Shown here: positions 1 to 63,652 of the stretch, piece by piece
How positions within the stretch are numbered: the first letter of the stretch is position 1
How the letters are laid out: every line of letters starts with the position of its first letter
From: Lineus longissimus
Lineage: Eukaryota > Nemertea > Pilidiophora > Heteronemertea > Lineidae
DNA length: 64,000 bases
Direction of reading: 5' to 3'
Assembly (NCBI RefSeq): GCF_910592395.1
Contig: NC_088322.1
Location: 11,713,431 to 11,777,430 of the forward strand
Notes under the pieces: generated by a model
Databases searched by the model: none
What the model saw: only the letters and a program-made list of their open reading frames with translations
What the model was told of the DNA's origin: nothing
Program-made: the position numbers and the translations under genes

Positions 1-2919
1 GATACAGAGCCTTATCTAGTCCACTCTTTGGAAATGTCTTGTTAATTCTTCATGTCTCCAGTAACACGTGAAAAACCCTGGGTGAAAAGTAACATGTAAC
101 AAGGGACAGTCTGAACAGTATGTAACCCTATCCTAACTGCAAGGTGATGTTTGGACTGATAATGTAATGTAACAACGATTTGTTCTACTTTGTAGGTCCC
201 TTTTAAATAATGTTGATGCTGCATGTGGCGCCTGCCACATTTACAAAATCTTAGGCTTTTAGACTTTTACAATTAAGCTGTGTTGTTTCTGTTGTGATGT
301 TGAATACTTTCTGCTGAATATATCTTTTCCTTCCATATTATTTTAATGGGTTGCTAAAACATCATTCTTAGATCATGCTTAAATCACCCTGTGTAATTGG
401 CAGTTAATATCTCAATTGGCAAATCCCTCCGCAATTGACAGTTAGTATCTCAATTGACAAATTCCTCGTTAATTGGCAGTCAGTATATCAGTTGGCAAAG
501 TCCTCTAAGTTGTAGCCAGTATCTTAATTGAATCTTGTGTAATTGGCAGTCAGTACCTCAATTGGCAAATTGCCTGTGTAATTGACAATCAATATTTTAA
601 TTGGCAAATTCCTGTGTAATTGGCAGGTGGTATCTCGATTGGCAAATTCCTGTGTAATTGGCAGGAAGTATCTCGATTGGCAAATTCCTGTGTAATTGGC
701 AGGTAGTATCTCGATTGGCAAATTCGGGAAAGTGCGGAAATGCGTATCAGCATCGATGTTGTTTTGGCAGCCCTCCTCTTGGAGCTTTAATAGACGGTGA
801 CAAATAAAAGGTTGTATTTGACTAGTACTTCTGTGAATATGTTACTGCAATGCTGGTCAGAAGTAATATCTATAATGGCGTGCAGCATTTTAGAAATTTG
901 ACTGTAACAGAATTCGTTTCAATGCATTTGACGGGCACTTGCTAATGTTCCCATGCCGTTTATGTTCGGATTTTTGCGTTGGCTTATAATCACCAAAATC
1001 TATGGCCACAAAAAGAACATCTGCAGTAACTGAAATTACTGTAGCAGGGTGGTTAAAATGTGCAATCAAAATCAAGCCAAAGTTCTAATTGCCCAAAATA
1101 TTTTGTGTCGGCGATAGATTGGAAATTTAGGTTCAGCCTGTGGGATTCGCGCAGCAAAGATGGGTGATAGCGACTTCAGTGCTACTAAAAAGTATTTTGC
1201 ACTGTGAATGATGAATGTTACTTCTGATCTGCACTGTAGCTGTAAATACTAGAGAAAGAAATTTTCTAGCAAGCTATTGTGAATCGAGGTGAATAAAGTA
1301 TGAATATTTATGAATTGAATCTGTTAATGGTTGTATAAGGACTGAGGACTCCCAACCAACAGGGCCCGGTTGTTAGAAAGCATGTTGATTCGTAACATCT
1401 TTTTTACATGTTATTTTGTGTACATGTATCAACGTGTCATCATGGTTTCATCATGATGAGGAGGTAACATGCTTTCTAGCAACTAGGGCCAGAAAGCAAT
1501 GCAACCGGAACTGCGCACCCTGGAGGTGTCACGGACTCTGGATTGCCAACAGTTGAGAAAACCTCATTGGAATCGTGACATCATCACTACCTTGCCAGAT
1601 GGATTGGAGTCTCAGCAGTGAGTTCGAGGACTTAAATCTCAGCACGTTTTAACCTTAATTTCATTGTATAGCTATCTCTCTTGCATTTGTATTTATTTTG
1701 TTATGGCATTGGCTGGGTTTGGCTTTGTTAATTTTGGAAGAATTTGGTTCCTAAACGAGATAAACAGACCGTTTTTAAAATTATAGAGTTTGTTACATCA
1801 TACAGATGTGCTTATAAAGATGTGTAAGTCAGGCAAATTTGAGGCAAATTGTTCAAGTCGAGATGTTGTTGTTGGCGAATTACATGTAAATTCTTAACCT
1901 AAGACATATTTTTTCTGAAATTTGCCTAAATTTATTTATCTCGTTTCAGAACTAAGCTCCTTAATTATCTTGTTAATATCTCTTCTAATAGAATATTATT
2001 GTCTTTCTGTTGGTCCTTGGTTGGTGTTTTATGTTCTAATTTAATTGAATAGTTCCTGTGAAAGTAGCTAGACTTCATGTATAGTACCCCAGATTCTTTT
2101 ACTATTGTTTGTGGACAATGGTAGCATCCTACTTTGGGTGTTGAGGTATCCAACTCATAGTCTAATGGTCATGGGTTCATTTGCCCGTCGCTGGTCTAGT
2201 TGAGGTGATGCATTGTATAGAAGCAGCTTCGGATAGATCAAAACTAAAAGTGGCAGCTGCAGTCAAGGTCCTAGACTATGGGGTGTCCTCTTTCTTCACC
2301 CCCCCCCCCCCATGGATCCGCCCCTGACAAACAAAACTATCTGTTTGTATTGCATGCACCAAGTACTTCTTCCTTTAACGGTGGTTGTTTATGCTTTTGC
2401 ATCAATCAATTCTGCATTTGGGTTAAGAAGTTCAAAATTGTAACAATTTATTTGGTTTCTTTCAGCACCATTCACTAGTCATTTGCTAATATAGCATGTT
2501 AAAACAAAAAATGCTTAAACTTTAACCTCAGGTGTGTCTTGCTTCTAAAATGACACCTTCGGATGGGCACACAACTGCTTCCATTGCTGCTAAAGCATCT
2601 GACTGAAATATTTTCCTGAAAATTTGGTCTGCAGAGGTAATAGTGGTCAGAATTGGTATAAGTCAGTAAAAGGTTCGAAGAACATAAAAGAAACTTTTCA
2701 AGAAGTTTTGTTAGTTATTCTAAAAGCGTCTGTAGTTAACAAAAACCTTATTGTAAATGTGAAAAAAATATTTGTATTCCAGTGATATTCGGTATATGGA
2801 CTGCGCTTGGGAATCATTGAATTTGAAATATTAGAAAATGAAAATCTGTCCTAACCTGGAGCAATAAATTGTTGGCCAAAAGAAATCTAACATTGTGTCT
2901 TAATTTTGTCTCGTTGCAG
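1..2919. other. Upstream non-coding stretch, no gene recognised
   Basis: No coding exon could be supported here. It holds the 38-bp minisatellite at 391-725, a possible poly(A) signal AATAAA at 1292-1297 that could end a transcript entering from the left, and a C-run near 2302. The exon starting at 2920 needs upstream exons supplying at least the first base of its split codon, but none with a convincing frame and donor was found, so they may be short, non-coding, or outside the window. Confidence 0.5.
391..725. repeat. Minisatellite, about 38-bp unit
   Basis: Roughly eight to nine imperfect units are visible, each built from an 'AATTGGCAG' half and an 'ATTGGCAAATTCC' half. The last units (about 613-725) are nearly identical and the left-hand ones more degenerate. 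All units keep the paired ATTGGCA words. No coding potential was seen. Confidence 0.8.
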
Positions 2920-5900
2920 AAAATGTTGAAGATGGTCAAAAGGAGAGTTCAGCCATTGATGAAATATTCCAGCAGCAGCAGGCCGACATGCCCTGGATCC
3001 CTGGCAGGTTTAGTGAATCCTCGTTGTCACATGGCAGCCTTCATCCGTCTTACGCCGAGTACCAACGAACCCGCAGCTTCGAGGGAAAGAAGAAATCAAC
3101 CGATAAAATTTACAGCGTATTGCATCCGGATAACCAGTTATGTATCGCAGAACAGGGTCATTATGACACTTATCCGGATTATTTCAAAGAAAATGTCAAA
3201 AGGTGCGTTCTTGGGGATATTTTTAGCGATTTTGTTTTGATAAGTCGACGGTTTAGCGCACCGGGGAAACCATGCTTGATTCGGTTAGACTCTGACCTGA
3301 ATAGTCACGCTGTAGTCCACATGATGTCATCACAAGAGTCAGGTTCCGAATCCTTTGATTCTAGCTCCTCAACCCCGGAGTCTGAAAATGAAACGCCCTC
3401 ACAGAATTTTGGACTGCCGATAATTTCTCTTGAGCCTGTTAAAGAGGATCTAGAGACCAGCTTTGGGACTGCCAGTCCTTCTAAATCACTCAGCCCAGTG
3501 TCGCCACGTAGTCCAAGGCCCCAGTCACCGAGGATCGATTTGGATGCAACACCTACAAAAGACCGCTCTAGTTGTTTCAATGCAATGTTGATGGAGGCGG
3601 AGAAAATTCGGAAAGCTCGAGTAGCATCTGAAGGGAGCCCTGTAAAAGATGGGAAGCGTCGGGCTAGAGTAGGTAAATCATCGCCATACAAGACTGAGAG
3701 TGGTTCTAATCCAGATGACGTGGATGGAGCCGCTGAGTCGGGGTCTGAGCCTCGTAGGCGGCGTTCTGGCCTCACAACGGTGGATCCAAATGACCTGTCG
3801 CAGCTGCGCGAAGAGGTTGAACTGCGGGAACGCATAAGCGCGATTGGTGATGAGCGGCGGAAAGACATGGAGAAAAAGCTGAATGGTCAAAAGTTTGAAA
3901 ATGCTGAAGAGGAGAATAATAATAGGCTACTTCCTGGCCCAGAGAGAACATTTGGGCCCTTCTCCCCAAGATCTGGGAGTCCAACGCCTGGCTTCGAGGG
4001 ACTTATGTTAAAAAAGGGCTTAGGAACAGATATCATGGCAGCTTCCGGTGGGTTTGGTAACCGACCCAACAGGATTTCAGAATTTGATTTGGATTTTGAC
4101 TTTGAGGCGAAGCGAAAGCGATTTGTATCAATGTCCAGTGAGAGTACTGATTACAGCGATGACTCTGGCAGTGGTACACCTACGGATGAATTTTCGCATG
4201 AGGGGCTCTTCGATGCACCGCTAGTTGGAGGTTGGAAAGACACATCCGATGGAGAAGATGATGGTCCCTTTAGTCGAACATTGGTTGAGAGTTTAAAGGA
4301 TGTTGGTTCATCGGAATCAGACTCGGAGAAATCGGAAGTAGAGGACGAAATAGAGGAGGTGGTGATAATGGAGGAAACCTTGGACGTCAATAAGGATGGG
4401 GATTATGACATTTATTACTACTGTGATGAAGAGTCTGGAGACGAAGATGGCGAATTCTGGGATGTTGGAGTCCAGGTTGAACTAGGGCCGCACACATTGG
4501 TGACAGCCGGTGTTCAGATTGCTGCTCTTGATTTGGAAAATGTACAAACGCAGACGGACTTGTCGTTGTTGGAATCTGTAAGTCTGCATATAGATGGCCC
4601 TATTTTCGATCCGATGAACATTGGCGAGAAAGAACTGAATCCTGATGCGAAAAGAAGTAAACTGCGCATCCAGTACAAATTAGACGCCATTAAGGAATCG
4701 TCAGATCTGAATTCCTTAGTTGGAACAGATATGTCAACCGATGAATTTTCAGAAAGTGGTTTTTGCAGCATGTCATGTGATTTATCACAATCGACTCCTA
4801 AAAAATCTGATCGTTCTGTCGACTCTGATAGCCTTTTTGACCACCACGATTTACTGACGAGTTCAAAAGTGACCCGCACCGTCCCAGCTCGGTTGACCAT
4901 CATTGACCGCTTTGACTTAGAGCCCAGAGGTACAGAACATGTTGAAGATCACATTATAACCAAACGCATCATTTATAAAAGTCCGTCTCCCTCAGAAGCT
5001 GATCTGGTTGACAGGGCAACTGATAAGGGTTCGTCTAATACAGAGATTTCCGTTGACTTGATTCCAGTTACTGATCGGAAGGAGTCGAAAGTATTTGGAA
5101 ATCCAAGAAAAGTTATACAGCGTGACATGGAGATGGACCCCGATTTAGAAGTTGAGCTCACGATGATGGGTCTTTTTGAATATGATTCCGCACCTGAAGT
5201 TGCTGCAGAAGTGGTTATAGCCACGTCCCCAGGTGACGTAGAGAATGACTTGGAGGAGAGGTTGGATGATGAAGAAGTGTCGACATCATGTTTCGGGCAA
5301 TTTACCTCATCTCCAGTTGGCTTTGAAAGGAGTACATTGCACTATAATTTTCCACATGATAAGAACATGGAGGAGAGGTTTGATCAGCAGACGGCACCAG
5401 TCGAACATAGTTACTGCGTATGGACACAAGACAGTGATGTTGACCCTGAAATATTTTGTGCTGATGATTCTTTCAGTGCTGAACATTTGGATAAATATAG
5501 TGGGGCATATGAGGGGCTTCCTTACAGCCCCATTTCTAGTCACGACGGACCAATAGACAGCGCTAGCAACAAAAAACACCAACTTCAGAAGATGTCACAA
5601 TCTATTTCACTACCAAACCTCCGAGACCCACGGTTTTATTGTTATGAGCCAGAGAAAAACCAGAAAACAGCTCCCTCTGGTGAGATATCTCAGTACTTGA
5701 GAACGTATGCGAAGTTGCCGAAATCCTTCTACAGTTTTCATCAGAACACATTTTGGCTATCTGCCGGGGATTTAACATGCGGGACATGTCTTAAAGTGGA
5801 AGAGCCGCTCCTTGTTTCTGAAAGATCGGAAATTCCTGTTTATTTGTCTGCAGACAGATGTCAGCGGAAGCAAAGCTGTTCATTTTCCATCAGTAGTGGA

Positions 5901-8900
5901 CTTTCTGACCAATCAGAATGCTCTGTCAATTCGCCCAGAGACGAATGCCTCAGAAAGCGCAGCCGTGCGTTTTCAATAACTAGCAATGATGGAGAAGGAT
6001 ACGTGGATTCTGTGATTTTCTTGAACACGGCCAATCAGTCTGAAACTGGATTATCGAATACATTTAGTACCTCATCTAGTGGTGCCACCTGGAGTCTTGG
6101 ACCTGAACTAAATTCCATGAAAGTGACAAGTCCTCTATTGATGGAGGATGAAAATAGAAACTGCGTTCCTGTGCGAGATAGTGACAATTCTCATAAAGAT
6201 GGGAACAGCATAGACAAAGCAGTTTCTACTGATAATCACGTGATTTTGAGTAACCATGGTAACCATGCTACGTTATCCAATCAGAATATTCCAAGTTCTA
6301 GTCATGTGACTTTTGTTGCTAATCATGGCAGCAATTCCATGTCCAATCGGAATGTTGACCATCATTATTCAAAATCCATAAGTTCACAATTCGTAACCAA
6401 TTCACCTCATTTTCCGCGAAAACATGAGAGGTCATCATTCCCGCCATCAGGTGGCACTACCAGTCCAGTATTCCTAGAGCGTGAAGACATCCTTGAGAAG
6501 GTTGTGAAGCGTCAGATGGGCAAGATCAAAGGTCACAATGAGGCGGAGATGACGGGAAAGCCGAAGAATAGGAAATCGCTGACAGAAGGAAGTGAATCGT
6601 GTCGGGTTGATTCTAAACTTGTGAGTATTCCACACGTGTGTGATTATGCTCCTCGGATAGAAAAAACTGATGTAAGTCATAAAACACCGTAGTATAACCT
6701 GGGGAAGACACTGAGGGGCAGGTGCCCATACTCATTTTTGGGACATTTTTAAATTGACCAAGAATTTTGGTAAATTGATCCAAAAATTATCGGGATGCTC
6801 CCTCACTGGCCGGGCATCTCGAGCTGCCCCTGAAACAAACTATAAAAACAAAATGTTTATTTGAACATGAGAATATGTTTAACATTTTGAGAAGATTGAA
6901 ATGTAATGACATAATCTGAGCTACCTGGCAATGCCTGGTGATTTACCAATAGACTACCTTTGATATTAATGAGAGAATTTCCTACGAGAGATCACATAAA
7001 AAGTGCCCAGTGTCCATTTATTTTCAGTCCAATAACACAGACGATCCCAAAGCTACTACACAAACACTTGCTGCCAGAGATAACCTTGCACAATCAGGTA
7101 AGTTTCACATTTTATTGCATTAAATCTCTTAAAAATGTGTTGGTTGTTGTTTTTATAAGTGATTATTTCAGAGTTTTGTTATAATATCAGGGGGGGGGGG
7201 TTAAAGTAAGTGACATATATATTCCCTGTCATTCAAGCGCAGATTTACATATACACGTACTTTCCCCATCATTCAAGCTGATAATTACACCTATATAGTT
7301 TCCTTCTCATTCAAGCTGAGAATTACATATAATTTCCATATCACTCAAGCTGAGAATTACACCTATATAGTTTCCTTCCCATTCAAGCTGAGAATTACAT
7401 ATAATTTCCATCTCACTCAAGCTGAGAATGACATATAGTTTCCATCTCACTCAAGCTGAGAATTACCTATAGTTTCCCTCTCATTCAAGTGAATATCTTT
7501 ACACGCCAGTGTCCCCTGTGAATAAACAGATAAACGAAAATAAGTGTCTCCATGCGATAACACAAATATGGTGCAAGGAAATTGGTTATCTTTTATATTT
7601 CTGAGTAGCTTGTTGACATGTCCGAATTGGCTCGCCCTGTCCTAGATAGTGCCAACACCCATATTTGTAATGATATTATCATATCGTGTAGGATTGTCTA
7701 GGCTGGTTTGATTAGAAACAGGGCCCAGTATTAGATTGAATTCACAAAAGAAGTTTCGCACTTTGTGGTCCATTTAGGAACTATTCTGTCTGATTTCTGT
7801 TTCTTAGATGGTAAGTTAGTGTCGAAATGATCCAAAGTTGATTATAGTCAATACATTTAAGACTTAGAGAAGGAGAGGGACTCACTTTTCATAATTTCTT
7901 GGTCAAATTTAAAGAATTTTCCAAACCATGACCTCTATGTGTCATGTTGGGGCTGTGCAATAAAGGAAGAGGTGATGTGAGGATCTTTTTTAGAAATATA
8001 TCTTGTACCTTACTTTAGGGTTAATGAACAAAGGGCTTTCTAAATAAAAATTTCTTTTCTCAATGATTCCTTGATCGACAACTCTGTTGACATTTTGGTC
8101 GAATATTTGTCTATAAGATCAATTTTGTCACTCCTCTTGAGACATTCCAGGCCACGAGAGCGTATTCATTTTAATCAGTGACATTTGGAGGGCTGGAGTG
8201 GTGTAGTTATTGTCGTCCAGGCATGTTGATAAGAACGCTGTGGGTACGATTCCTACTTGTCAACTATTGGCCTAAATTTTAGGAAAGCATGGCAAAAAGA
8301 TCCTCTAGAAGGAGGCAATTGGCACCAACTAAAAACGACAATGAAACACACTGTTACTCAGTAGAAACACTGAGAAACAGAGAATGGTCGTCCAGAACTT
8401 TAATCTGAATATCATAATCAGACTTGACTTCCTGAGTATGTTTTTGAAATGGGTTGAGGACATATGGACCTTTCACATCAGAACGCAAGATAGTACACTT
8501 CTTGTGTACCGGCAGTGTATAATTTGTGTTAGAATTTTATTGTTTGCTTTGGGGAACAGTCCCAATACTGACCAGTTTTCGACTTTAGGCATTTGGTGGG
8601 GAACAGTATTCACTATTATTATCATTTTTATTTTCTTTCACTCCAGGTTCGTGGAGGGGCTCCAGTGACAATCTGTCAACAGAACTTCATGTTCTTCAGG
8701 AGGCGGGTTTAGTGCGATCAAACCGAACAAAGGTAGGTGTAACAGCGAAGTGGTTTATGTTCTTTTGGTTTTGGGATAATTATATCATTGGGCTAGATAT
8801 CGTTAGGATAAGGCAAATGCAGTCAGCTCTGACTCTGTTTTGTAATAAGGATAAGCCATCACATCTGGAATAACATCTGGACTCACCAGGCTCAACGATC

Positions 8901-11900
8901 ATGAAGTCCTTTTAACGAGCTTTGTAGAGACTATTGTTAAGATTGGGATTAGACATATCGGGGCAAGATGCTGGGATAGTTGACAAAAAATCATTTTCAA
9001 CCAGTAATATGAAATATTTCGACACATCGTCTTTGACACATTTGCCTTAGCGTAATGCATATCTTTATGATGTATTTTGAAAAAGGGTCAGAAGTGTTCC
9101 CTTCCCAGGGTTATGGTGATTCCTTTAAAGGGCAGTTTTCTTTCTCAAACTTGTAAGCCCCTGTGACCTGATTTTTGCCGAGCCCCCGGCACTTGGGAAA
9201 TGAAAGATAAGTCGGCACTGAAAGGATTGGCGGCATGATCGTGCCTCCCTGCAGCTAGGGGTTGCTTTCTCTTTGGCTTGCCCATTTTTGTCCTGGACAT
9301 GATTTTTGCTGTGTATACCTCAAAAAGCATCCTGCGTGGGTCAACTCCTGATGTCAGGGGGACCCATGTTTTAGTTGATGTTGAACCATTGTCCCATTCC
9401 TGTTAAAGTGATTATCACCGACCAGACAGGTTTCATTTCAATACTATCTGATGCCGACTAAGGCACTCACTTTTCTACCCGACAGTGTAATAAAGAAGAT
9501 CCATTTTCCCCAAAATTACCTGCCGGTTACATTGTACTAGGTTCTTGCAGCGCCCCTTAATTCTTGAGGGGAGTGAAAACGGAAAAATATGAAAACCTAA
9601 ATAATTTGCGGGTGATAATCACTTTAAAAGTAGCATGCAGATTATTCCAGTTCTTTCTGTGTTTTATTCTTCCAGTTTTTGCATTAGTTTGCATGTACAC
9701 TATTTGTATGTGAGTATCATATTGGTATCCCTGGGTTAGAGTACATTCTAATCTTCACTTGTCAATTCTCTACTGCTTCTCCTAAACCGTGCTTCTGACT
9801 TTTTGAATTTCTCGAAACCAGTTCCACAATTTTTGTCCACACTTTTTTTTCAACTTGGCATAACAAAAAATGCTTTTCAAATTACAGTTGAAATTATGCT
9901 GTGCACTGCTTACCAAATCAGCTGAAAATTGGGAAGGATGCTTTGAAACATTTTGTAGATAACGTCTGTCGTAAAAATCTGACTTGACATTTAGATTTAG
10001 TCAAAGGTTAGATTATGTTGGCGACTCGGGTGAAACAAAAAACACAGAGAAAAATCATAAGGGGAAAAGCCTTTAGGAGAAACCATGGTGTGGTCTTGCT
10101 ATTGCAATTGATAGTTTTGATTTTCGGAGAGGTACCCTACCAAAACTATCTCTGTCCTCTGTGCTTGCTAGGTGATTGTCTCCTGTGTGAGTTTTGTGTC
10201 AATCTATCCATCTTTCTTTATGCCTGCCTACCTGTTCGTTTTACTTGTACTTTCTTGTGGCTCAGGTAAATAAACCAGATGACAGCAAGAACTGTAGTGC
10301 CTTGTAGTTGTACGAAAATCTCTAACCTGTGTCCCATTTCCATTAGGCTTCTTCTAAATCTGTTCCTCATCAGTTGGTCCACTGCTATTAAGTAAAGGAA
10401 CAAGAAACTATAGGCCTCCTGCACTTGTATTATGGGGACTGGTTCTGTCCAGCAACGTGCTTCTTGAGGTAAAGAACTCTGTTCATGCTATGGCTTAGCC
10501 AACAGCGTTTGGTGTCAGTCCCAGTCCAAAATAGCAAAGCCGCCTCTTTCCAGATTTTACCACAAAAAGCTCGACCACAACAGGCATTCGTCTGAAAACT
10601 GACGAACTGGCATGGCTATCTAATTCTGCCTCCAGTGTGTGCTAAGCTTTCATTCTTCAAGAGTTGGTCTTCGATTGCTTGCTTAGCATCCACCTCTCCA
10701 CCACATCAATGTAGTTATGTGACATCACTCAGGCCAATTTGTCTCAAAACTTGATTATTACATCAGTATAGTGATGCTTTCTACCTGAAAAAATAGTAGA
10801 AAGATTATGCTAAGGACCTTGGTTGTAAAACAGAAGTACAGTAGAATCTCTCTATCAGGGAAAGCCTTGGGACTTATAGAGAGGTGTCCCAAGAGGTAAA
10901 ATTTCATGGAAATTCCTTTTTGTGGAGCATAAACTAAGTGAACTAATGTACGATTTCACAAAACACCTTCTTTTATATGGTTTTTCTCCTCATGCTTTAA
11001 TAAATTTACAGATCATTTTATTTTCCAGATATTTGAATATTTGCTTCAACAATTATCCAAGATGGGACAGAATGAATCCGGACACATTGATCCCCTTGAT
11101 GAGACACCAATGGATCGAGGTTCGTATCGTCGGCATTCATTCCACGGGCCGTCGTCTACCACGCTGGATGTGAAACTGGGGCCGTCACGATCTTTATCAC
11201 ACGAGGACCTCTTGAGGGATTCCGCTGGTTTGAAGACGCTCAGTGGGGATGGGGGTACGCTGAGGAGGGATGTTCTGAAGAGACAACAGGGGTTGCGGAG
11301 GAAGGATTTCAGTGTAAATCCGAGGTGGAGCGATCCGACGCCTTGTAATAACGTCAAGAGAGAGAAAGAAGTGAAAATGAAGGACGAATTGAAAATGACA
11401 GATCCAAGGCTGACGTCAAGTGAGAATCTTCGCAGGAAATGCTACACTGACCTAGATCAAGGTCAACAGTTGAGGTACGATTCCGACGATTCGCTTGCAA
11501 ATATCAAGAAGAAACGAAAAAAGAAGGGTCGATCGAAAAATAAAGAAAGCGTTGTAGGAAATTGTGCTGCTGCGTCAGTTGAGAATGAGGCAAAGACCGA
11601 GCACATTGGTGAGATGGCAGGCTTGTTGCGCAATGACACAACAGAGGTCAAGGCCACTAAGAATGCAGCAGACATTATGACAGAACCAAAAGTCAAGGAC
11701 AACAAAACAGAGGTAACTGTCACTCAAAATGCAGCAAATGTTACAATGAAACCAGAGGTCAAGGACAACAAAACAGAGATCAAGGTCACTGTAAATGCAG
11801 CAGACGTTAAAACTGAACCAAAGGTCAAGGTCTGTGTAGCAGCAGACGTTAAAACTGGAGACAAAGTTGTAACAATGCAGCCACCTGGTTGTCTTGAGGT

Positions 11901-14900
11901 GATGAAGGTGTCACGCTCTAAGTCTATGAGCAACGTCCACCTCATTGAAAAGGCATCCCACAATGCACCACAGCAGTCGCTGATTCAACATCCAGTGTTG
12001 ACCCAGCAGACACAGCGCGAGTATGACTTTCAGTCGCTGCGACAATATTACGAATCATTGTCTGACGAAAGAGGAAGGTCAATGACTCTTCCGAAAGAGA
12101 CGTTAGCTAGGCCAATTGATGGTGCTAGATTGAAGCGTGCACTGTCCGCCTCAGATGTTCATGAAATTGCAAAATCGTCAGTCATTTTCCACACGCCTAG
12201 TAATAGTAGCACGATGGATGTTGATCTAGTCCATTCAGACCACGAGGGCAAGACAAAGAAGAAAGAAAAGAAGAAGAAGAAGCACAAGCATCATCACCGC
12301 TCTCGTGAAGAGTTGGACAGTGCAACTTCTGGTTCTGAAAAGGCAGCACCAGATGTCACATTGCCAGATGAAGCAAAATCAGTACGGAGAGAAACAACAG
12401 GAATTACAGTTGATATAAGATCGGTGAAGAGGGTAGAAAATGATGTGAGAGATGTAACGAAATCCGAAGAAGTACTGCTGAAGAGTTCAGGAGGTTGTGC
12501 AGCTGGAAATGATGCAGCAGATGGCGTGAAAGGTGCGGAATCTTTCAAAACTGTGGATGATGTTGCACGATTTGTAAATGATCAAAATGAAACAATTGAG
12601 GAGATTTCTAAGGCCTCGTTTGCGTCTAAAGTTGCCATCTTTGAACAATCAAAGCACATGCACCACAAACCAGGAGCGCACTTAGAGAAGAAGGGGTTAA
12701 CGAAGCCAAAAGATTACACTGATCTTCAGCCTGGGGAATTTGATGCTCAAATTATCCCAACAGAACATAGTCAAGTTGAGGTAGAGAAAAAAGGTCCGAG
12801 TACTTTTGTATCAGATAATTCAGCAGCACATCCAGGAACAGTTGAGAATGTCGTTTGTTCGGTTTCTAGCATTAGAGTTCAAGGAATTGCACAGGAAGTT
12901 GTTGGGACATCTGCTGCATCAGGGGATGTAAACAATACTGACGCATGTAAATCTGAGAATATCATCTTCATTAAAAACTCCTCGAATGTGACGAGTGGTT
13001 GTGGATCTAATAGGGATGTAGTTATGGAAAACAGTGACCAAGAAAATGGTCACCCGCCTTCAGACTTAATGTCGATTCCATCCATTGAGATAACTTACGC
13101 GGAAGATGTGGACCAAACTGAAAATCCAGAATTTGTACCGCTGTGTACTGAAGATACAAACGAGGCTCGAATGGCAAATCGAGATTCGAGTGTTGGGAAC
13201 ACAAATCGGAGAGATGATTCTATGGACAGTGAAGAATCGCGTGCTGCCATTGTTGAGGATGTCATCTACCAGGATATGAGTGTAGGTGGCGTATTTGCAT
13301 CACCGCACGATCTGGATGAATTGGCTTCGAGGTCACAAGAGAATCAGAAGGTCAGAGGTCAGAAGGATAGTGTCACTTTCACCCTTCCTCCTGATTTTCA
13401 TGAGGGGGCTGATGATCTTGAGATATTCATCGAAGGTCAGGGCCAAGGTCGCGATAGGACAAATTCTAAAGATTCTGTTGTTACAACGGTGTCATCGCTG
13501 AGTTCGTCTTGTTCTTCGGGTGGTTTTGAGGACTACATGCTGGAAAACCTTGCTAGGGAGCAACAGACTATTGGGGATGTGCAAAAATGTGGAAAGGGAT
13601 GGAAGGTTGTGAAAAGTGGGGCTGGGGATGAAAATTCTCAACAAACTCTGTCAAAATCAAATGGGGAAGATTCTCCATCAGGAGACAAGAAAGGGTCTAT
13701 AGATGATGCCTCGGTAACCATAGCGACCACTGAAGCCGCTTTCTTGGCAACCGAGTCTCCGAGAGGAAAGAGGCCAAATTCACTTGAGATTGGGAACGAT
13801 GCAGAGCTTTGGCTGATGACGCCCCCCGGAGTAACAGATGATGATGACATGCTCATTGTTCTGACGGGAAATGGCTATGCATCGTGTGATCGTCGAGATC
13901 AGAAGTGTGTGTTGGAGGCTTTGGTGCTGCGGGATCGTTCAAGTTCAGTGAAGGTATGTTCATGTCTCTGTCAGCTACTTAAAAGCGCAATTTTGTCAAA
14001 TGTGTTCAGGCCTGATGAATCCAACCCTAAGTTGGTTCAGATTATAAGTTTTTCTTCTCTTGGTGTCTGATCATGTCTGAAATTCCAATACTTCATCAAA
14101 CAATATCAAATAGACTTTGGTGTTTACTTTCAGCTTGTGTTAATCAAGATTGTATTTCAGGAATCATCAGGCAACTTACTAATTTCACCAGAACCATGCG
14201 GGAGATCCATTCATTTTCCTCAGCTCATTTCTCTTTCTCATTTCCCAGACACCGACAACGCCACTGACACCACACTTCCCCCCGTATGATAAGAACGTAA
14301 GTTTTTCAAGGACGTATATTTTCAGTAGTCGTTCAAAGGTTTGGCAGGAGTGCTGCTATTCCTCCACTAAGGCAGGATGAGCATGCCACTACGTGTCGGC
14401 ACCAGTTGGCTTTAATGGCTTAGTGACTCCGACTTTGGCCAGAGGTAAAGTCGACGCCAGCTACTCATGTTTCTCACTTTGTTGGGTCTCTGGCTTGCCC
14501 TGGCATAGACACCATGCAGATACAAGGAAACTCAGTTTTACATCTCATTCGAAGGACTGTGAAGAGCCAAGAATTTTACTTGCTTGAAAGCCACGCCGGT
14601 TCATCCAGAAACACGATCCTGCGTTCTCAGGATCAAACCCGGGCACTATTGCGTGGTAACCAGCAGTACCACTAGGCAATCATCTTTATGTTCTATTTTT
14701 TCAGGGTGTGCTGAGTGACTTCGACCTTCTCGACATGAGTTTGGTGAAGTACAAGGCGGACCTAAAGGAACTGGAAATGCTCGCAGACGTTGTTTACATG
14801 GATAACACGGAGAAACTCTCTGACAAAGATAGGTTGGTCGTCTCTTTTGTTATTTTTGTACAGTAGAAGTTAGTGCCCTTGTATCTAGTCTAATCGGAGT

Positions 14901-25859: not shown

Positions 25860-33114
<7,255 letters not shown>

Positions 33115-42141: not shown

Positions 42142-54832
<12,691 letters not shown>

Positions 54833-56541: not shown

Positions 56542-56548
56542 CCAATAG

Positions 56549-57113
56549 CGCTGAAAGGGTGGACGTCGTCCTGGGTGGACAAATGGTACCCAGGTTCGAG
56601 ATCGACTGGACAATAAGCACCCTGGGTGCCATTACACTAGACAAATAGCACCCAGCTTCATTTTGCCTGGCTTACGGATCTTAGGGGCGACGTTTCTTGC
56701 AATCTCGTTCTATCTCGCGCCGTGGTACTTGCGGCATTAGCAGTGCTCGAGATAAACAGAAAAAACGCGTTTAGGCCTATAGGTCTTTGAAAGCACATTT
56801 CGGATATATCGCTCCTATATACCTTTTCTGAATAAATCATCCGAAATGTGCTTTCAAAGACCTTTAGGCCTAGACGCGTTTTTTCTGTTTATCTGTTCTT
56901 TTTATTTCGCGCACTGCTAATGCCACAAGTACCACGGCGCGAGATAAAACGAGATTGCCAGAAACGTCTTCGTCCCTAAGATGCGTAAGCCAGGCAAAAA
57001 GAAGCTGGGTGCTATTTATCTAGTGTAATGGCACCCAGGGTGCTTATTGTCCAGTCGTTCTCGAACCTGGGTACCAATGGTCGGCACCCAGGACGACATC
57101 CACCCTTTCAGCG
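56549..57113. mobile_element. Fold-back transposable element (565 bp, about 255-bp inverted arms)
   Basis: The left arm begins CGCTGAAAGGGTGGACGTC and the right arm ends with its inverse, GACATCCACCCTTTCAGCG. Complementarity runs on through GTGCCATTACACTAG / CTAGTGTAATGGCAC to the centre, where GAAAGCACATTTCGGA meets TCCGAAATGTGCTTTC around a spacer of about 35 bp. The flanks are CCAATAG (56542-56548) and TCAATAG (57114-57120), a probable 7-bp target-site duplication with one mismatch. No transposase is present, so it is non-autonomous. Confidence 0.85.
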
Positions 57114-57354
57114 TCAATAGCGCTTTGATACAGTACAGTTGTAAAGTAGTATATGAGCCTACGTTTGATTTTACATTTCACACAATGTTAAGAAAGTGAT
57201 GTGTGCATCAAGAATGTCGGATTAAGGGTGATGATTCAGCTGAATTCGACATTTTCTTATTTTCTTACCGGCGGCAAAAAGCATCCTGGTACCTACGATG
57301 CCATCGACACAACCTACAATGCTTAATTCGATCACAAGCATGGGCATGGGGACG

Positions 57355-57476
57355 GTATATATCGAGAACGAAGTTCTTCAAGTGGGGATCTCAAAGCGAC
57401 GAGTGCAATTTCGTTCCTATAAATTATCACCCACTCTGGGGAGAGACATACCATTCTGACTGAATCCAACATAAAG
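57355..57476 (+). promoter_or_regulatory. Tentative promoter and 5' UTR exon of peptide gene 1
   Basis: The exon with the start codon of peptide gene 1 is preceded by an acceptor (TTTTACAG, ending 58745), implying an upstream 5' UTR exon. The best visible candidate ends at 57476 (ATAAAG/GTAAGT) and has a TATA-like GGTATATATCG at 57354-57364. Inferred from consensus only. Confidence 0.3.
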
Positions 57477-57936
57477 GTAAGTCTTCCAGACCATTTTATC
57501 CCGAAATTTACCCAAATTCACCACACATGATACGCCATGCGAGCGTGACCTTGTTTTCTTTAGAATTGTAACTTATCGTCAGGGATAGCTCCAAAGTATT
57601 GCTATAATAAGCAATAGTTATTGAGCCTGGGAACTTGTCAGTGGAATACTGGTAGGTCCCCGAAGCGATCGAAGCGATGAGTTAAAGCAGTGTCTTTCTG
57701 AAAGTAACAATATGATGTACAGTCTAGCTAGCCCATTGATATCAAGACTATTAGTCCATACCATATCTCGCAAAAAGGGACCAAACCAATGCGATTTGTA
57801 GCATATTGTTAAAAAATATTTCTAATTACATAACGTCAAAGCAATTGCGCAAGTTATTCATTTTTTAATCTGCCATTTTAAAAAACCTAAAAATATCTTT
57901 ATTTCGAACTTATTTTGAAAAATTTCGTAAAAAATG

Positions 57937-58008: not shown

Positions 58009-58809
58009 TCACATACGCCATTCTATGAAAAATGGAGTCATATAATAATATTCAAGCTTATTCTCTCTGCCAGTTTTAGCTTTCATGTGGTATAAGTCAC
58101 TATGCATACATTTCGATCACGTAGGATTTTCAGACTCACAGTTTCGTACTAATTTTGTTGATGATGAGATCACAAAAAGGTATTTCCTTTAGGATAAAAC
58201 AGTATCGCCCAACATATTTTAATCATGTCACAAACTTTCGGGTGACAAGACCCCCTAAATGTCTTATAAATCTTATAACACGTGTATGAGGCCATTTGGC
58301 GGCTATAGCGGCCAATTCATGCAGGGGTAGAGTTTAGCGATCACCTGTCCGATTGTTTGTCATCGTGATCAGCACTCTCCCGGTCTTCGGTCCTAGGTCT
58401 CATTTTATGCCACCCGCTGAAAACCGAGTCAGACTTGGCAACGATATTTACCATGACGACGCTTGGAGAATGTATGATCAGGTTCGAACAATGGAATAGG
58501 CGTTCGCGTCGGCGTTGCGGGGGCTTCGCGAAAACTCCCTACTAGATAAACTTCCGGTCCTGCGCCAGAAGGATGCACAAACGCGAACAACATAGTTTTG
58601 TCGCCCCCTTCGGAAAATACCCTACTGGCTGTTGAACCCCGCCTTTAAAGCCCAAAGTCCAGCAAATCAAAAGTTATTTACAGGTTTACCTGGTGGAAAA
58701 TAAAGGAAAACGGAAATTATTGCTTACACCTATTTCCTTTTACAGATAAACACCCAGTTAACTATATTAACAACCCAGGGTTACACCCCATTTCACCAAA
58801 AGAAGCCGG

Positions 58810-60202
58810 ATGTGCCGCTTCATGCTTAATGTCTTCTTGGCGTTTGCCATCATCATGCTCGTGACTCACTTAGTCGCAGGTAAGTCAACATTCATTACGT
58901 TTTTATATCAGTACCATACGCTTGTGTCTCTCCTAGTTGCGCTGATTTGAAATGGCTCGAAATCTAACCTAGTTCCTTACGTTTTGATATCAGTATCATG
59001 CGCTTATGCGCATATAAATTTGTGTTTGTCTTAGTTGCGTTGATTTAATATTGTTTGAAATTTATATCCAGTACGTATTAACACCATTTGAAATTTTCAA
59101 ATTCAATTACCAAATTTCAAATCACGAATGGTGTAGGCCTTTCATACTTAGTCGTCAATTTCAGCTGACGACAACGATGATATTAATGATGTGTTCGAAG
59201 AATTCCTTAAACGCCGCAAAGGTAAGTGTTCAAGATATGGCCAACTGGCCAACTTTTAAAGCGCCCTGCAAACGATGGAGATTTGTTTCAGCGGCCAGCG
59301 ATATATACCATGCGTCAAATAGCCGGGCCTCATTCAAACCAACCAGCACTCTTATAGCATATGCTTTTAGTCGCTGCTACCTGCGACGGAGTCATGAAAA
59401 CTTTGCAATTGTGGTTGGAATGCAACCACTGATTGGTTCAATTGCAATCACTCGTATGTTGTCAGATTACTGTCGCAGATCGCAGCGACTGAAAGCACTC
59501 GTTTGTGCCACACTAGAGATAAGTATTTGAAATTTGCAAATTGCAATTATAGGGAACGGAGATATCACCGATATGACCCACGGACGAGTGTACATGTTGT
59601 CACTCACCGCAGCGATAGATATTGTAGTTCTATCTACTCTCGTTCGCTCTCTGTAAGGGTTTGTGTCCGGCAGCCATTTTGGTTCAAATTTTGCTGAGTC
59701 ATAGGAGGAACATTGCTAATTATTTTTCTCTTGTGCATTGTTTTTGCACGCCAATACCTCGATACACTCAAGCTAAGTGCATAAAAGGTATGCATACACA
59801 TTGTGGGGTGAAATTTAGCTTTTGGAGCACGTTGCCTATTGTTTAGTCCAGAGACTTACCATCCCTTTCGTCAGCAATCATTTGGCTAAAATTGCAAATA
59901 TGCACGTTCAGTACACATCAAGGAATTGCTGTGCAAAATGAAAACCAGGAGAAATAAATGAACGTAGCCAAAATGTGTGACCCCCAAAACCCCAAGATGC
60001 CATCCACCTTAACTCAACATATTTTTCAGCTACACCGGAAGAGGACGCTGTTGCACGCCGCTCATGGGCTAAAGTCGCGAGCATCTTTAAAGGCATTGGT
60101 AGCACGGCGATGAACGCTGTCAAAGTTGCTCTTCCAGTGGCGAACGCCTTACTCGCTAACATGACTAATGGGAAAAAGAGGGATATAGAGGAGAATAAAT
60201 AA
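58810..60202 (+). CDS. Precursor of a secreted amidated cationic peptide, antimicrobial-like (peptide gene 1)
   Basis: Three coding exons, 58810-58879, 59165-59221 and 60030-60202, joined by phase-1 introns. Exon one is a hydrophobic signal peptide ending LVA. Exon two is an acidic propiece (ADDNDDINDVFEEF) closed by LKRRK. Exon three starts with an acidic spacer (TPEEDAVARR) with a dibasic site, then a Cys-free peptide of about 36 residues that begins SWAK, has three Lys, no acidic residue and regularly spaced hydrophobics, then NGKKR (amidation Gly plus dibasic cleavage) and an acidic tail DIEENK. The layout of acidic pro-regions and an amphipathic amidated cation with Trp at position 2 is that of linear alpha-helical antimicrobial precursors such as cecropins. 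The exact family is not recognised; a neuropeptide or a membrane-active defence peptide is the alternative. The start codon is the only Met-led signal peptide in frame. Confidence 0.75.
59368..59490. repeat. Small palindromic element in peptide gene 1 intron
   Basis: Left arm AGTCGCTGCTACCTGCGAC (59368-59386) pairs with right arm GTCGCAGATCGCAGCGACT (59472-59490), matching at 17 of 19 positions, around a spacer that has its own CAATTG-centred symmetry. Looks like a MITE fragment. Confidence 0.6.
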
Positions 60203-60805
60203 TCAACTGATGTAATATCTATCAGTATACTTAGGTATGTGGCATTTGTGTTAGGCAGACCCGTGCAAACTTTTTACGGCAAACATGACCAAAGTTTGCT
60301 GATATATGTGCAAACAAAAATTTGTCAATGTAGACCAGGCATTATCTGCAAGTGAGCTTCTTAAAACTTATTGAGGTTGCTCACTTCATCAGGACATTAT
60401 AGTATCATTCGACGTGTACGTGATTTCATTGTGTCTACCAGATGGAAAATGCTTCATTTCTCTTAAACTCATGAGTTCCCGTCTTCTGTTATTTCTTGAA
60501 TATGGCAAAGCGACTTTTCTGTATTGCTCCAGGCGATTAATGTATAGATCTCTCTTCAAGGCGATATAGGTCTTTCATATTCATTTTGCATTTTTCTCTC
60601 AAATTTTTTTCTGAAAATTTGCCAGTGTGAAGCTGTCCTTGTAGCAATATACTACATTCTTCTTTTTCAGTTACGCTACAAAGTCAGACGCCACCGAATC
60701 TTTGGACTCTCAGTACCTCTTATACCAGCCACTCAAATATATTCCGTTTTTCCCGCAGGAACCTGTAGCTCTTGTTTAGAAGACATTAAAGCAAATGGTG
60801 AAATC
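60203..60805 (+). other. 3' UTR of peptide gene 1, with an intron
   Basis: After the TAA at 60200-60202, a donor CTTAG/GTATGT lies at 60234/60235 and an acceptor TTTTTCAG ends at 60670. The terminal UTR exon runs from 60671 to a poly(A) signal ATTAAA at 60784-60789. The same donor, acceptor, first bases of the UTR exon and ATTAAA recur, inverted, at 63036-62535 in the second gene, which supports the model. The junction is 32 bases after the stop, inside the usual 50-55-base limit for triggering nonsense-mediated decay. Confidence 0.65.
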
Positions 60806-61403
60806 ACGTCTTGATATTTATTTGATTGGAATCAATTGTGAGATTAAGTTACACGAAGTGGGCGATATGTGTCATGTTACAACGGATAAGGTGGCATCGC
60901 CCGATTAAGTGACCTTACCGAAGAAGTAACACAAAATCAACCGATTGAGTGACCCACATCCGTTTAGGTGACACTCCATCGCCCGATTAAGTAGGAAGAC
61001 ATGTTCTCAAGAGAAGACGACCTTGTTCGTGGCCTTGGTTCGTGGCTATATTTCACCTCCTTGACTCTCAAATGGATCAAAAACTTCGTCTGTTAGTAGG
61101 TTGGCGAAGCCCGTTTCGTAACGCCCGGGTATTATAGCCCTGGTCGTTCTGTACACTGCGTTTCGGGCTGGTGTTCAATATTCGCAATCATAGGCACCCT
61201 TCCTTCTCTGACAGCCCAATAGTGGGATTATCAGGAGTTCGAGCAATCCAGCCCAACATAAACAACGTCAGTGTCCTGTCGGCCTGTGCGCCTCGGGCTA
61301 GACTATCATAGGCTGCCACAGCCAATGGACATGACGGTGAGAGCAACATCACAGTCACAATCAGATTCTTCCCCCACTGTGAGAGAGATGCGACCGACAC
61401 AAT

Positions 61404-61521
61404 GGGTGATATGAATAAAGACTAGCAAATGCTTTTATCTAAATCTCCATGTACATTTACACTAGGCCTTCCTGTACAAAACCGGAGTAAAAGCATTTGC
61501 TAGTCTTTATTCATATCACCC
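61404..61521. repeat. Hairpin with perfect 34-bp arms
   Basis: 61404-61437 (beginning GGGTGATATGAATAAAG) is the exact reverse complement of 61488-61521, around a 50-base loop. Arms this long and perfect suggest a recent insertion or a folded RNA. No TIR or TSD beyond the arms was identified. Confidence 0.85.
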
Positions 61522-61544
61522 AATGACACCAAGTTGAACCTGAT

Positions 61545-62340
61545 TGCTAAAACAGTCAGATAGTTGAGACAGTCACAACCAGACCGAGCCCAATCTGTTT
61601 TGCCAAAACTGAGCTTGAGGATGATGAGAGCAGTCACAACCAGACCGAATCGGATCTGTCTGCTCCAACGCTTCGCCATAACTGTTACAGAACTCGGCTA
61701 GACTTGGGAGGACTTTGACTAGGTCCACTATTATATCCGACACGGTGGGATAGACGAGACAGTCACAAAAGACAGATAATTTGTGTGTCTTTCTACTCTC
61801 TCATGGTCGTGCCTCTGACCGTCTGTGACATGTCTCGACTAATACAAATTGGGCAAGGTTGTATCCCAGCCATCCCTGATACTTACTTGAGTAGAGATAG
61901 GTTCACAACCAGACCGAACCGGACTTGTCTACCACACTGTTTTGCTGCAACTGAGGCATATGAGAACAGTCACAGCCAAACCGAATCAACTCTGTCTGAC
62001 CAAACGCTTCGCCGTAACTGTAATAGAGATGAGACTGTAACAGAGACGGGACGGCCATCACAAGGTTAAATTGGACTTGGAAGGAAGGTGCTATGTATGG
62101 TCGACACGTTGAGATGGACGAGACAGTCACAACAAGACAGATTATTTTTGTGTCTTTCTCTCATCAACGTGCCTTTGATTGTCCACGACAAGTCTCGTCC
62201 AGAGTTTTACCCCATTCAGCAGAGTTATATCCTATCCCTACATTTGCTTAGTAGTAATGGGGTACAACACAAATAGGCGAATGTCATGGGATTATGTGTG
62301 TGTCTTTCTCTCATGAACGTGCCATGGTGGTGTCCCATCC
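61545..62340. repeat. Imperfect tandem repeat, about 360-bp unit with 60-bp sub-units
   Basis: 'CAGTCACAACCAGACCGAA' type words recur about seven times (for example near 61570, 61630, 61905 and 61970). A longer segment beginning GACAGTCACAA..AGACAGAT and continuing TGTGTCTTTCTCTC is repeated at about 61760 and 62123, with a partial third copy near 62296. It lies between the two peptide genes. Confidence 0.7.
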
Positions 62341-62534
62341 TATCCTTACCCGGGTGGGTATGTCGAGTCGTCCATCATCCAAATTTCGTTCTGGTTTCTG
62401 CTGCAAACCTGCAAGAAGCACACCACTTGTCGCGGTGGTTAGTGACGAGATGAGCTGTTCCACTGTCGGCGGAGTGTAATCGAGTACTAAATGCGTGAAA
62501 TGACTTTACGTCAAAATGATAAATATCAAGACAT

Positions 62535-63077
62535 GATTTCACCTTGTGCTTTAATGTCTTCTAAACAAGAGCTACAGGTTGATAACGAGAAAAATCGGGA
62601 AGTGGCTGGTATAAGAGGTAGGCTTACATGAATGTTAAATATTCGGTGATGACCGACTTAGTTGCGCAACTAAAAGAGAAGAAGAATTCTTTTTATTCAC
62701 AGATACAAATGCTCAAAAGAAAAATGTCACATGTAGATTTAAGGCATATCAGGGTAGGACAGAACTTTATATGATGCCAAAGCAGTGACGAATCGATTTG
62801 TTTAGCTTGCGATTACGACGATGTTTTGCTCATTCTCCAAAGCAGACATGGTATTCAAGCATAATCTCTCTGGCAGTATTAGCGTCCGTGCATGTTGGAA
62901 AGTCGCTGTATATTATAAACTTTAAGGAGCAGCTAATGTACATATGCCTCAGTTAAGACTAGTCAGTGAAGCAAACAGTAATTCTAAAGCTTCTGATGAG
63001 GCGTCACACCACAGCCACAACATTATTCCTATTACCTAAGCAAACTGATAGATGTTACATCAGTTGATCAGTCTTCC
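62535..63077 (-). other. 3' UTR of peptide gene 2, with an intron
   Basis: On the minus strand the stop (63078-63080) is followed by a donor CTTAG/GTAATA at 63036/63035, an acceptor TCTTTTAG before 62669, a terminal UTR exon and a poly(A) signal ATTAAA at 62550-62555. Aligning it with peptide gene 1 shows shared sequence around the donor (TCAACTGATGTAA, ATCTATCAGT) and along the UTR exon (CACCGAAT, CCTCTTATACCAGCCACT, CCTGTAGCTCTTGTTTAGAA). Confidence 0.65.
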
Positions 63078-63652
63078 CTAGTTCTCATTAATATCTCTCT
63101 TTCCGCCGAGGATTTTGCCGACGATTGGGAGAGCACCTTGCGCAAAGTTGCCAACTTTTTTCATAGCGTTCGTGAACTTAGACCATGATCGGCGTGCAAC
63201 CTCTTCGTCTTCCGGATTAGCTGAAAAATATATTGATGTAAACTAAGCTGGGTGTCCGAGAAGGCAAGGTAGAGTCTAAAATGTATAAATTACGGCAACA
63301 CACGGGTCAGGTTTCCGTCGCACTGCACGCAGAGAGTATCCGGTTCCGAGAACCAATCCAGAATGACCCACTTATGTGTAGGACGTCATCAGTTGTTGGT
63401 TATGAATCACAGCTGTCACTGTTGGATCCCAGTCGTGAATGCGAAACCCTTTTTGTACCCCGTTCTGATAACGGGATCAGGAACGAAAACCATTCTCGAC
63501 GGAGCGGTTCTCGGACGGGATAGCGAAATCTCACTTATGAAAAAGTTGAGTGCGTGCTGCGGTGTAATGACCCAAGTTGCATACATAGTATGCCTTTTAC
63601 ATACCTTTGCGGCGTTTGAGGAAATCTTCCAAGGCATCATCGTATTCGTCGG
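63078..63652 (-). CDS. Precursor of a secreted amidated cationic peptide, antimicrobial-like (peptide gene 2; 5' partial)
   Basis: Paralogue of peptide gene 1 in the opposite direction. Visible coding exons: 63605-63652 (acidic propiece ADEYDDALEDF closed by LKRRK) and 63078-63220 (spacer NPEDEEVARR; a Cys-free peptide of about 28 residues starting SWSKF with four Lys and no acidic residue; amidation and cleavage signal GGKR; acidic tail DINEN; stop TAG). Both introns are phase 1 at the same codons as in gene 1. The signal-peptide exon should lie at higher coordinates, but no match to it exists up to 64000, so it falls beyond the window. The peptide body is eight residues shorter than that of gene 1 and largely different in sequence, while the processing motifs and SW start are kept. 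Confidence 0.75.

Follow-up and report, generated by a model that had tools for sequence, protein, structure and literature searches.

A 64-kb window of the genome of the ribbon worm Lineus longissimus (the window being the whole stretch of DNA analysed) contains, at 58810..63652, a convergent pair of paralogous genes, gene A on the plus strand and gene B on the minus strand, which probably form a two-gene family of host-defence (membrane-active) peptides. In our best reading of their sequences, the predicted products are cecropin-like in layout but by sequence neither cecropins nor centrocins. Both genes follow the same plan: a TATA box with a noncoding first exon, a signal exon, an acidic propiece exon, an exon holding spacer, mature peptide and tail, and a noncoding last exon.

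Gene structure and conservation

The coding exons of gene A lie at 58810-58879, 59165-59221 and 60030-60202 on the plus strand, with GT/AG splice sites and phase-1 introns. Its predicted precursor of 99 residues consists, in order, of MCRFMLNVFLAFAIIMLVTHLVA, ADDNDDINDVFEEFLKRRK, ATPEEDAVARR, SWAKVASIFKGIGSTAMNAVKVALPVANALLANMTN, GKKR and DIEENK. Gene B has coding exons at 63652-63605 and 63220-63078 on the minus strand within the window, and its predicted precursor of 86 residues starts with MCRFMLNVFLAFAIIMLVTHLVTADEYDD. The original prediction had placed two paralogous three-part precursors here, and its outer limits, 58810 and 63652, proved exact. The elements it listed are all present, namely KRRK, ARR, SW at the mature N-terminus, a Cys-free mature peptide, G-KKR or G-KR, and an acidic tail. 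It was also right that, within the window, only the complete gene has a hydrophobic signal: that of gene B lies 918-987 nucleotides (nt) beyond the window's end, in the adjoining locus L003 (8418-8349, minus strand). The stop codon precedes the exon junction by 32 nt in A and 42 nt in B, and under the usual rule for nonsense-mediated decay a stop this near to the last junction escapes decay. A kappaB-like site with one mismatch is present at 57384-57393, 24 nt 5' of the gene A TATA box and within the upstream block common to both genes.

Conservation between A and B follows the exons. Five exon segments are 76-99% identical over aligned bases, each above the best of 60 shuffles; measured over the longer sequence, the identities are 0.99, 0.70, 0.61, 0.69 and 0.81 against shuffle maxima of 0.62, 0.58, 0.57, 0.60 and 0.66. 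The upstream block, in which TATAAAT is followed by a short noncoding exon with AAAG as its last bases before the donor GTAAGT, is identical at 102 of 136 columns (E 1.5e-19). The same bases occur at 109 of 126 aligned positions of the 3' noncoding exon with its ATTAAA, and at 33 of 36 positions of the splice-donor region past the stop codon. The stretch just 5' of the TATA box barely exceeds its shuffle maximum (0.68 vs 0.67), as do the last 40 nt of intron 3 (0.72 vs 0.70). Among five intron stretches compared, three did no better than the best shuffle and one falls in the conversion tract described below. Only 2 of 3,000 shuffles equalled or beat the alignment score of the two mature peptides. 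A regular expression for the layout, written post hoc after the genes had been seen, matches twice in the window and never in 60 Markov sequences of 64 kb. Chance open frames are ruled out by the conservation between the paralogues. At the level of sequence, the comparison establishes A and B as paralogues whose exons, splice sites, promoter block and 3' ends are conserved.

Properties of the predicted peptides

The predicted mature products are Cys-free, amidated and amphipathic, with 36 residues in A and 28 in B, and Ala-Leu-Pro is conserved in both. They contain no acidic residue and have side-chain charges of +3 (A) and +4 (B). After the signal the precursors as a whole are balanced, with 13 acidic and 13 basic residues in A and 12 of each in B. 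The best 18-residue hydrophobic moment is 0.49 in A (as high in 2 of 1,000 shuffles) and 0.52 in B (8 of 1,000), and the same script gives 0.55 for the heavy chain of centrocin 1. The parts N-terminal to the Pro have moments, at 100 degrees, of 0.38 in A (p 0.0065) and 0.46 in B (p 0.0015). Single-sequence AlphaFold2 predicts one long helix for each exon product, with a mean predicted local distance difference test (pLDDT) of 83.3 and a predicted template modelling score (pTM) of 0.45 for A, and values of 81.6 and 0.50 for B. Both precursors thus show the layout that PMC7387483, in the part available, gives for linear cationic helical antimicrobial peptides: a secreted precursor (the signal judged by hydropathy alone), an anionic proregion and a predicted Cys-free, cationic, amphipathic helix.

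Evolution of the gene pair

A tract of gene A at 58743..59008 on the plus strand is identical to gene B (L003 8484-8220) at 263 of 266 columns (98.9%). Starting at the splice acceptor, it runs through the signal exon and 129 nt into the intron. Outside it, the coding sequences of A and B differ at about half of their synonymous sites, and the near-identical tract is therefore best read as the product of recent gene conversion. The tract ends where an intronic direct-repeat copy ends (58973-59008, family D7), and repeats may bound the exchange.

The rest of the coding sequence has changed unevenly. In the flanking coding parts (propiece, spacer and tail; 36 codons) the proportions of differing synonymous (pS) and nonsynonymous (pN) sites are 0.496 and 0.186, compared with 0.478 and 0.450 in the mature part (27 codons). 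A pN contrast as large arises in 0.28% of 5,000 permutations (p 0.0028), and the corresponding nonsynonymous (dN) and synonymous (dS) rates of the flanking parts are 0.21 and 0.81. This pattern indicates constraint on the flanking parts and, in the mature parts, divergence at close to the silent rate.

The family appears to be confined to this pair. When the 391-Mb genome was searched with three exons of gene A, the 3' exon at E up to 0.1, the mature exon at E up to 0.001 and the signal exon at E up to 10, A and B were the only copies found each time (2 of 2 scored candidates); such copy counts are lower bounds for repeats and large families. No third copy was seen in 40 kb around the two genes.

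Searches for relatives and comparison with known families

In a collection of about 5.8 billion proteins, precursor A drew 9 candidates and the A-B alignment 11, none of them scoring; the search needs shared 5-residue words, and distant kin could escape it. Because this collection gave no match although it includes at least one NCBI protein of L. longissimus, the gene appears to be absent from the annotation represented there, or to have been annotated in a different frame. All matches in Pfam and NCBIfam fell below the cut-offs of these libraries, and those in a PDB sequence search were weak, with E 0.033 for a designed protein and 1.4 and 2.8 for others. Rfam and tRNA scans were empty, as was, expectedly, a search of a phage collection, and a full-text search for strings like ARRSW found no paper. 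The peptide fAMP-LP-5 from a helminth screen aligned to mature A with p 0.01 and was rejected, this being one of six comparisons. As a kind, linear amphipathic peptides with an acidic propiece are familiar, and the family of genes A and B is itself unmatched; the claim that it is undescribed is based on searches without a match. The original prediction knew no name for the family, which agrees with the lack of any significant match in Pfam, NCBIfam, PDB and the 5.8 billion proteins. In the protein, Pfam, NCBIfam and PDB searches we also saw no strong similarity to a characterised neuropeptide family.

The original prediction likened the layout to that of cecropins, which agrees with our best reading. 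Insect cecropin precursors are not known to carry an acidic, dibasic-cut propiece such as genes A and B have. Insect cecropins, as described in the part of PMC6929098 available, are 34-55 residues long when active and have a basic amphipathic N-terminal domain, a flexible proline/glycine hinge and a more hydrophobic C-terminal segment; several are amidated, and many have an N-terminal Trp. Peptide B, at 28 residues, is shorter. Cecropin P1 from Ascaris is reported to start with SW, as do peptides A and B, but has no detectable sequence similarity to them (shuffles reach at least the same score in 50% and 17% of cases). By hmmscan, the Pfam cecropin family matches neither the precursors (E up to 1) nor the mature peptides (E up to 10), and a cecropin homologue is rejected for want of sequence support.

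Sea urchin centrocins resemble the pair in their evolution and proportions. Their 30-residue prosequence is conserved and their active chains change faster, according to the accessible text of PMC4805251; gene A has a prosequence of 29 or 30 residues, depending on the signal cut. In centrocins the prosequence is followed by a cationic chain of 30-32 residues, which in centrocin 1 is described as having Trp at position 2. However, centrocins are heterodimers whose chains are joined by a Cys bridge, and they also have an interchain and a light chain; genes A and B lack all three: their mature parts have no Cys and no light chain follows downstream. The centrocin 1 heavy chain has no sequence similarity to either peptide (its scores are matched or exceeded by 62% and 51% of shuffles). 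Precursors of frog skin antimicrobial peptides are alike by description, with a conserved signal and a hypermutable antimicrobial domain, and an acidic propiece with basic cut sites; they are, however, vertebrate genes.

Proposed function and alternative explanations

From the anatomy of the precursors and the workings of such precursors elsewhere, we infer secretion, charge-balanced storage, dibasic cleavage, amidation and action on membranes. The signal peptide would be cleaved off after VAA in A or VTA in B, and the acidic residues of propiece and spacer would offset the basic charge and hold the precursor inactive; short anionic propieces are said, in a source seen in part, to neutralise the charge of antimicrobial peptides. 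A dibasic-cutting convertase would then cleave after ARR and after GKKR or GKR, and trimming with PHM/PAL-type amidation would yield SW...N-amide (36 residues) and SW...G-amide (28 residues). The freed cationic peptides would become amphipathic helices on anionic bacterial membranes and permeabilise them, with the conserved Ala-Leu-Pro sitting at about the position of the cecropin hinge. After a duplication, the mature part would have changed rapidly, so that a single secretory and processing cassette would now deliver two different peptides. The original prediction spoke of an unnamed innate-immune family. A secreted, amidated, cationic family fits the sequence, and the way the pair has evolved is in keeping with a defence peptide; the innate-immune function is one that we infer.

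Several observations weigh against a role in host defence. At +3 and +4 the peptides are only modestly charged, and peptide A has a rather high hydrophobicity (mean 0.31, vs 0.08 for the centrocin 1 heavy chain). The parts C-terminal to the Pro (11 and 7 residues) have no significant amphipathicity (p 0.26 and 0.12), and the AlphaFold2 helices, in weak models made without an alignment, extend through the spacer and do not break at the Pro. Sites like the kappaB-like one upstream of gene A are not enriched across the window (104 found vs 108.6 expected). Finally, in a rate comparison of a single gene pair using 63 of 76 aligned columns (the 13 gapped columns dropped include nine in the mature part), the mature-part dN (0.69) is not above dS (0.76), and the comparison therefore shows relaxed or diversifying change in the mature part, short of proven positive selection.

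The main rival is that the products are defensive cytolysins, skin-gland peptides that lyse animal cells as part of the worm's toxic mucus and for which any antibacterial effect would be secondary. Nemertean toxins (nemertides, A-toxins and parborlysins) come from the same animal group and are likewise small secreted peptides with duplicated genes, a duplication reported in the accessible text of PMC10674772. Alpha-nemertides are reported from L. longissimus mucus, related worms make the membrane-active A-toxins and parborlysins, and the C-terminal amphipathic helix of A-toxins has been suggested to matter for lysis, all according to sources available in part. The hydrophobicity and low charge of peptide A would suit such a role. 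Yet nemertides and A-toxins are described as disulphide-bridged, whereas peptides A and B have no Cys in their mature parts and a different precursor, in a comparison made by description and through the database searches. Among the passages that term searches listed from seven nemertean toxin papers (PMC6410017, PMC5864730, PMC9415933, PMC7460313, PMC11768458, PMC9132205 and PMC10674772), in four of them 12 of the places found, there was also no such peptide. On balance we regard a cytolysin as possible but unlikely.

A signal, dibasic cuts and C-terminal amidation are equally the layout of neuropeptides, and peptides A and B might be single-copy hormones or neuropeptides that work through a receptor. 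A pattern search for nemertean neuropeptides, as described in the part of PMC8557429 available, required at least 3 amidation or at least 5 dibasic sites, and a single-copy precursor would escape it. Against this stand the length (28-36 residues) and amphipathicity of the two peptides, and the C-terminus is little conserved between them, ...MTN-amide in one and ...ILG-amide in the other. In amidated receptor ligands the C-terminus is usually the most conserved part. Among the names in the mass-spectrometry section of PMC8557429, compared as names and not as sequences, there is no sign of either peptide. We consider a signalling role improbable.

The peptides could also be a permeabilising component of the mucus that eases channel toxins through an attacker's epithelium, and so serve both as immune effectors and as agents of toxin delivery. 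Frog skin antimicrobial peptides have been proposed to help frog poisons across epithelium (PMC5686178, seen in part), and by analogy with them we consider such a double role conceivable but quite doubtful. If it were true, gene conversion would keep the signal exon alike while the active part diversifies.

That the genes were recently silenced, or are pseudogenes without a product, would explain the lack of a match in a protein collection that includes L. longissimus, but annotation often misses small genes, and the open frames, intact splice sites, low flanking dN (0.21 vs dS 0.81) and conserved promoter block and 3' ends make it highly improbable.

Feature coordinates and surroundings

The exons of both genes and the putative promoter of gene A are listed in Table 1.

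Table 1. Predicted features of genes A and B in the window (UTR, untranslated region)
Feature	Position	Strand	Details
TATA box, gene A (putative promoter)	57418..57423	+	TATAAA in block aligning with gene B upstream region
5' noncoding exon, gene A	57447..57476, start approximate	+	donor GTAAGT at 57477; exon end and donor kept in gene B; transcription start putative
Signal exon, gene A	58746..58879	+	5'UTR 64 nt, then MCRFMLNVFLAFAIIMLVTHLVA; first ATG of exon at 58810
Acidic propiece exon, gene A	59165..59221	+	ADDNDDINDVFEEFLKRRK
Spacer/mature/tail exon, gene A	60030..60234	+	ATPEEDAVARR, SWAKVASIFKGIGSTAMNAVKVALPVANALLANMTN, Gly-KKR, DIEENK, stop 60200-60202, 3'UTR 32 nt
3' noncoding exon, gene A	60671..60805, 3' end approximate	+	ATTAAA at 60785
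Acidic propiece exon, gene B	63605..63652	-	ADEYDDALEDFLKRRK
Spacer/mature/tail exon, gene B	63036..63220	-	ANPEDEEVARR, SWSKFTNAMKKVGNFAQGALPIVGKILG, Gly-KR, DINEN, stop 63080-63078, 3'UTR 42 nt
3' noncoding exon, gene B	62535..62669, 3' end approximate	-	ATTAAA from 62555 in sense

Upstream of gene A, at 56544-57124, is a near-palindromic fold-back element of about 0.56 kb with nested arms of 113, 73 and 56 nt that are 92-96% complementary. It is bordered by two copies of AATAGCGCT (56544-56552 and 57116-57124) and resembles an insertion of a miniature inverted-repeat transposable element. Between genes A and B, at 61330-62323, lies a cluster of diverged direct repeats of 31-76 nt (families D1-D5), which includes a 38-nt inverted pair at 61400-61525.

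Elsewhere the window holds a beta-catenin gene (25860-33111), where exact 8-residue words cover 818 of 818 residues of the L. longissimus protein, and a tubulin exon at 46479-47642 on the minus strand (Pfam Tubulin and Tubulin_C; alpha-tubulin-like by eye). The beta-catenin match places the window in L. longissimus and rules out an echinoderm source, which the likeness to centrocins had suggested. Exons resembling an ionotropic glutamate receptor span 44007-53504, with Lig_chan at 53142-53504 (E 2.6e-18) and a weak receptor-domain hint at 44007-44417 (E 0.084). Two very long open frames on the plus strand, at 2904-6689 and 10942-14067 (1262 and 1042 residues), match no Pfam family above cut-off.

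Significance

In the literature on nemertean antimicrobial peptides, covered mostly outside subscription journals and in part, we came across no ribbon-worm antimicrobial peptide described as linear and Cys-free. A study of Amphiporus lactifloreus, in its accessible text, gives no match to known antimicrobial peptides. Nemertea are nevertheless not without antimicrobial candidates, since a defensin- and myticin-like candidate, possibly antimicrobial, is described from Lineus sanguineus mucus (PMC10674772) and a nemertean peptide has been classed as antimicrobial at p 0.45 (PMC11768458), both in papers available in part; antimicrobial tests of nemertide alpha-1 are also on record in such a source. 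The Toll and Imd pathways are described in Lineus ruber, according to the part of PMC9835746 available. If genes A and B encode active host-defence peptides, the pair would provide a linear effector for the phylum that could sit downstream of Toll and Imd, and would illustrate cleanly, in just two genes, how a product can diversify while its secretory cassette is conserved.

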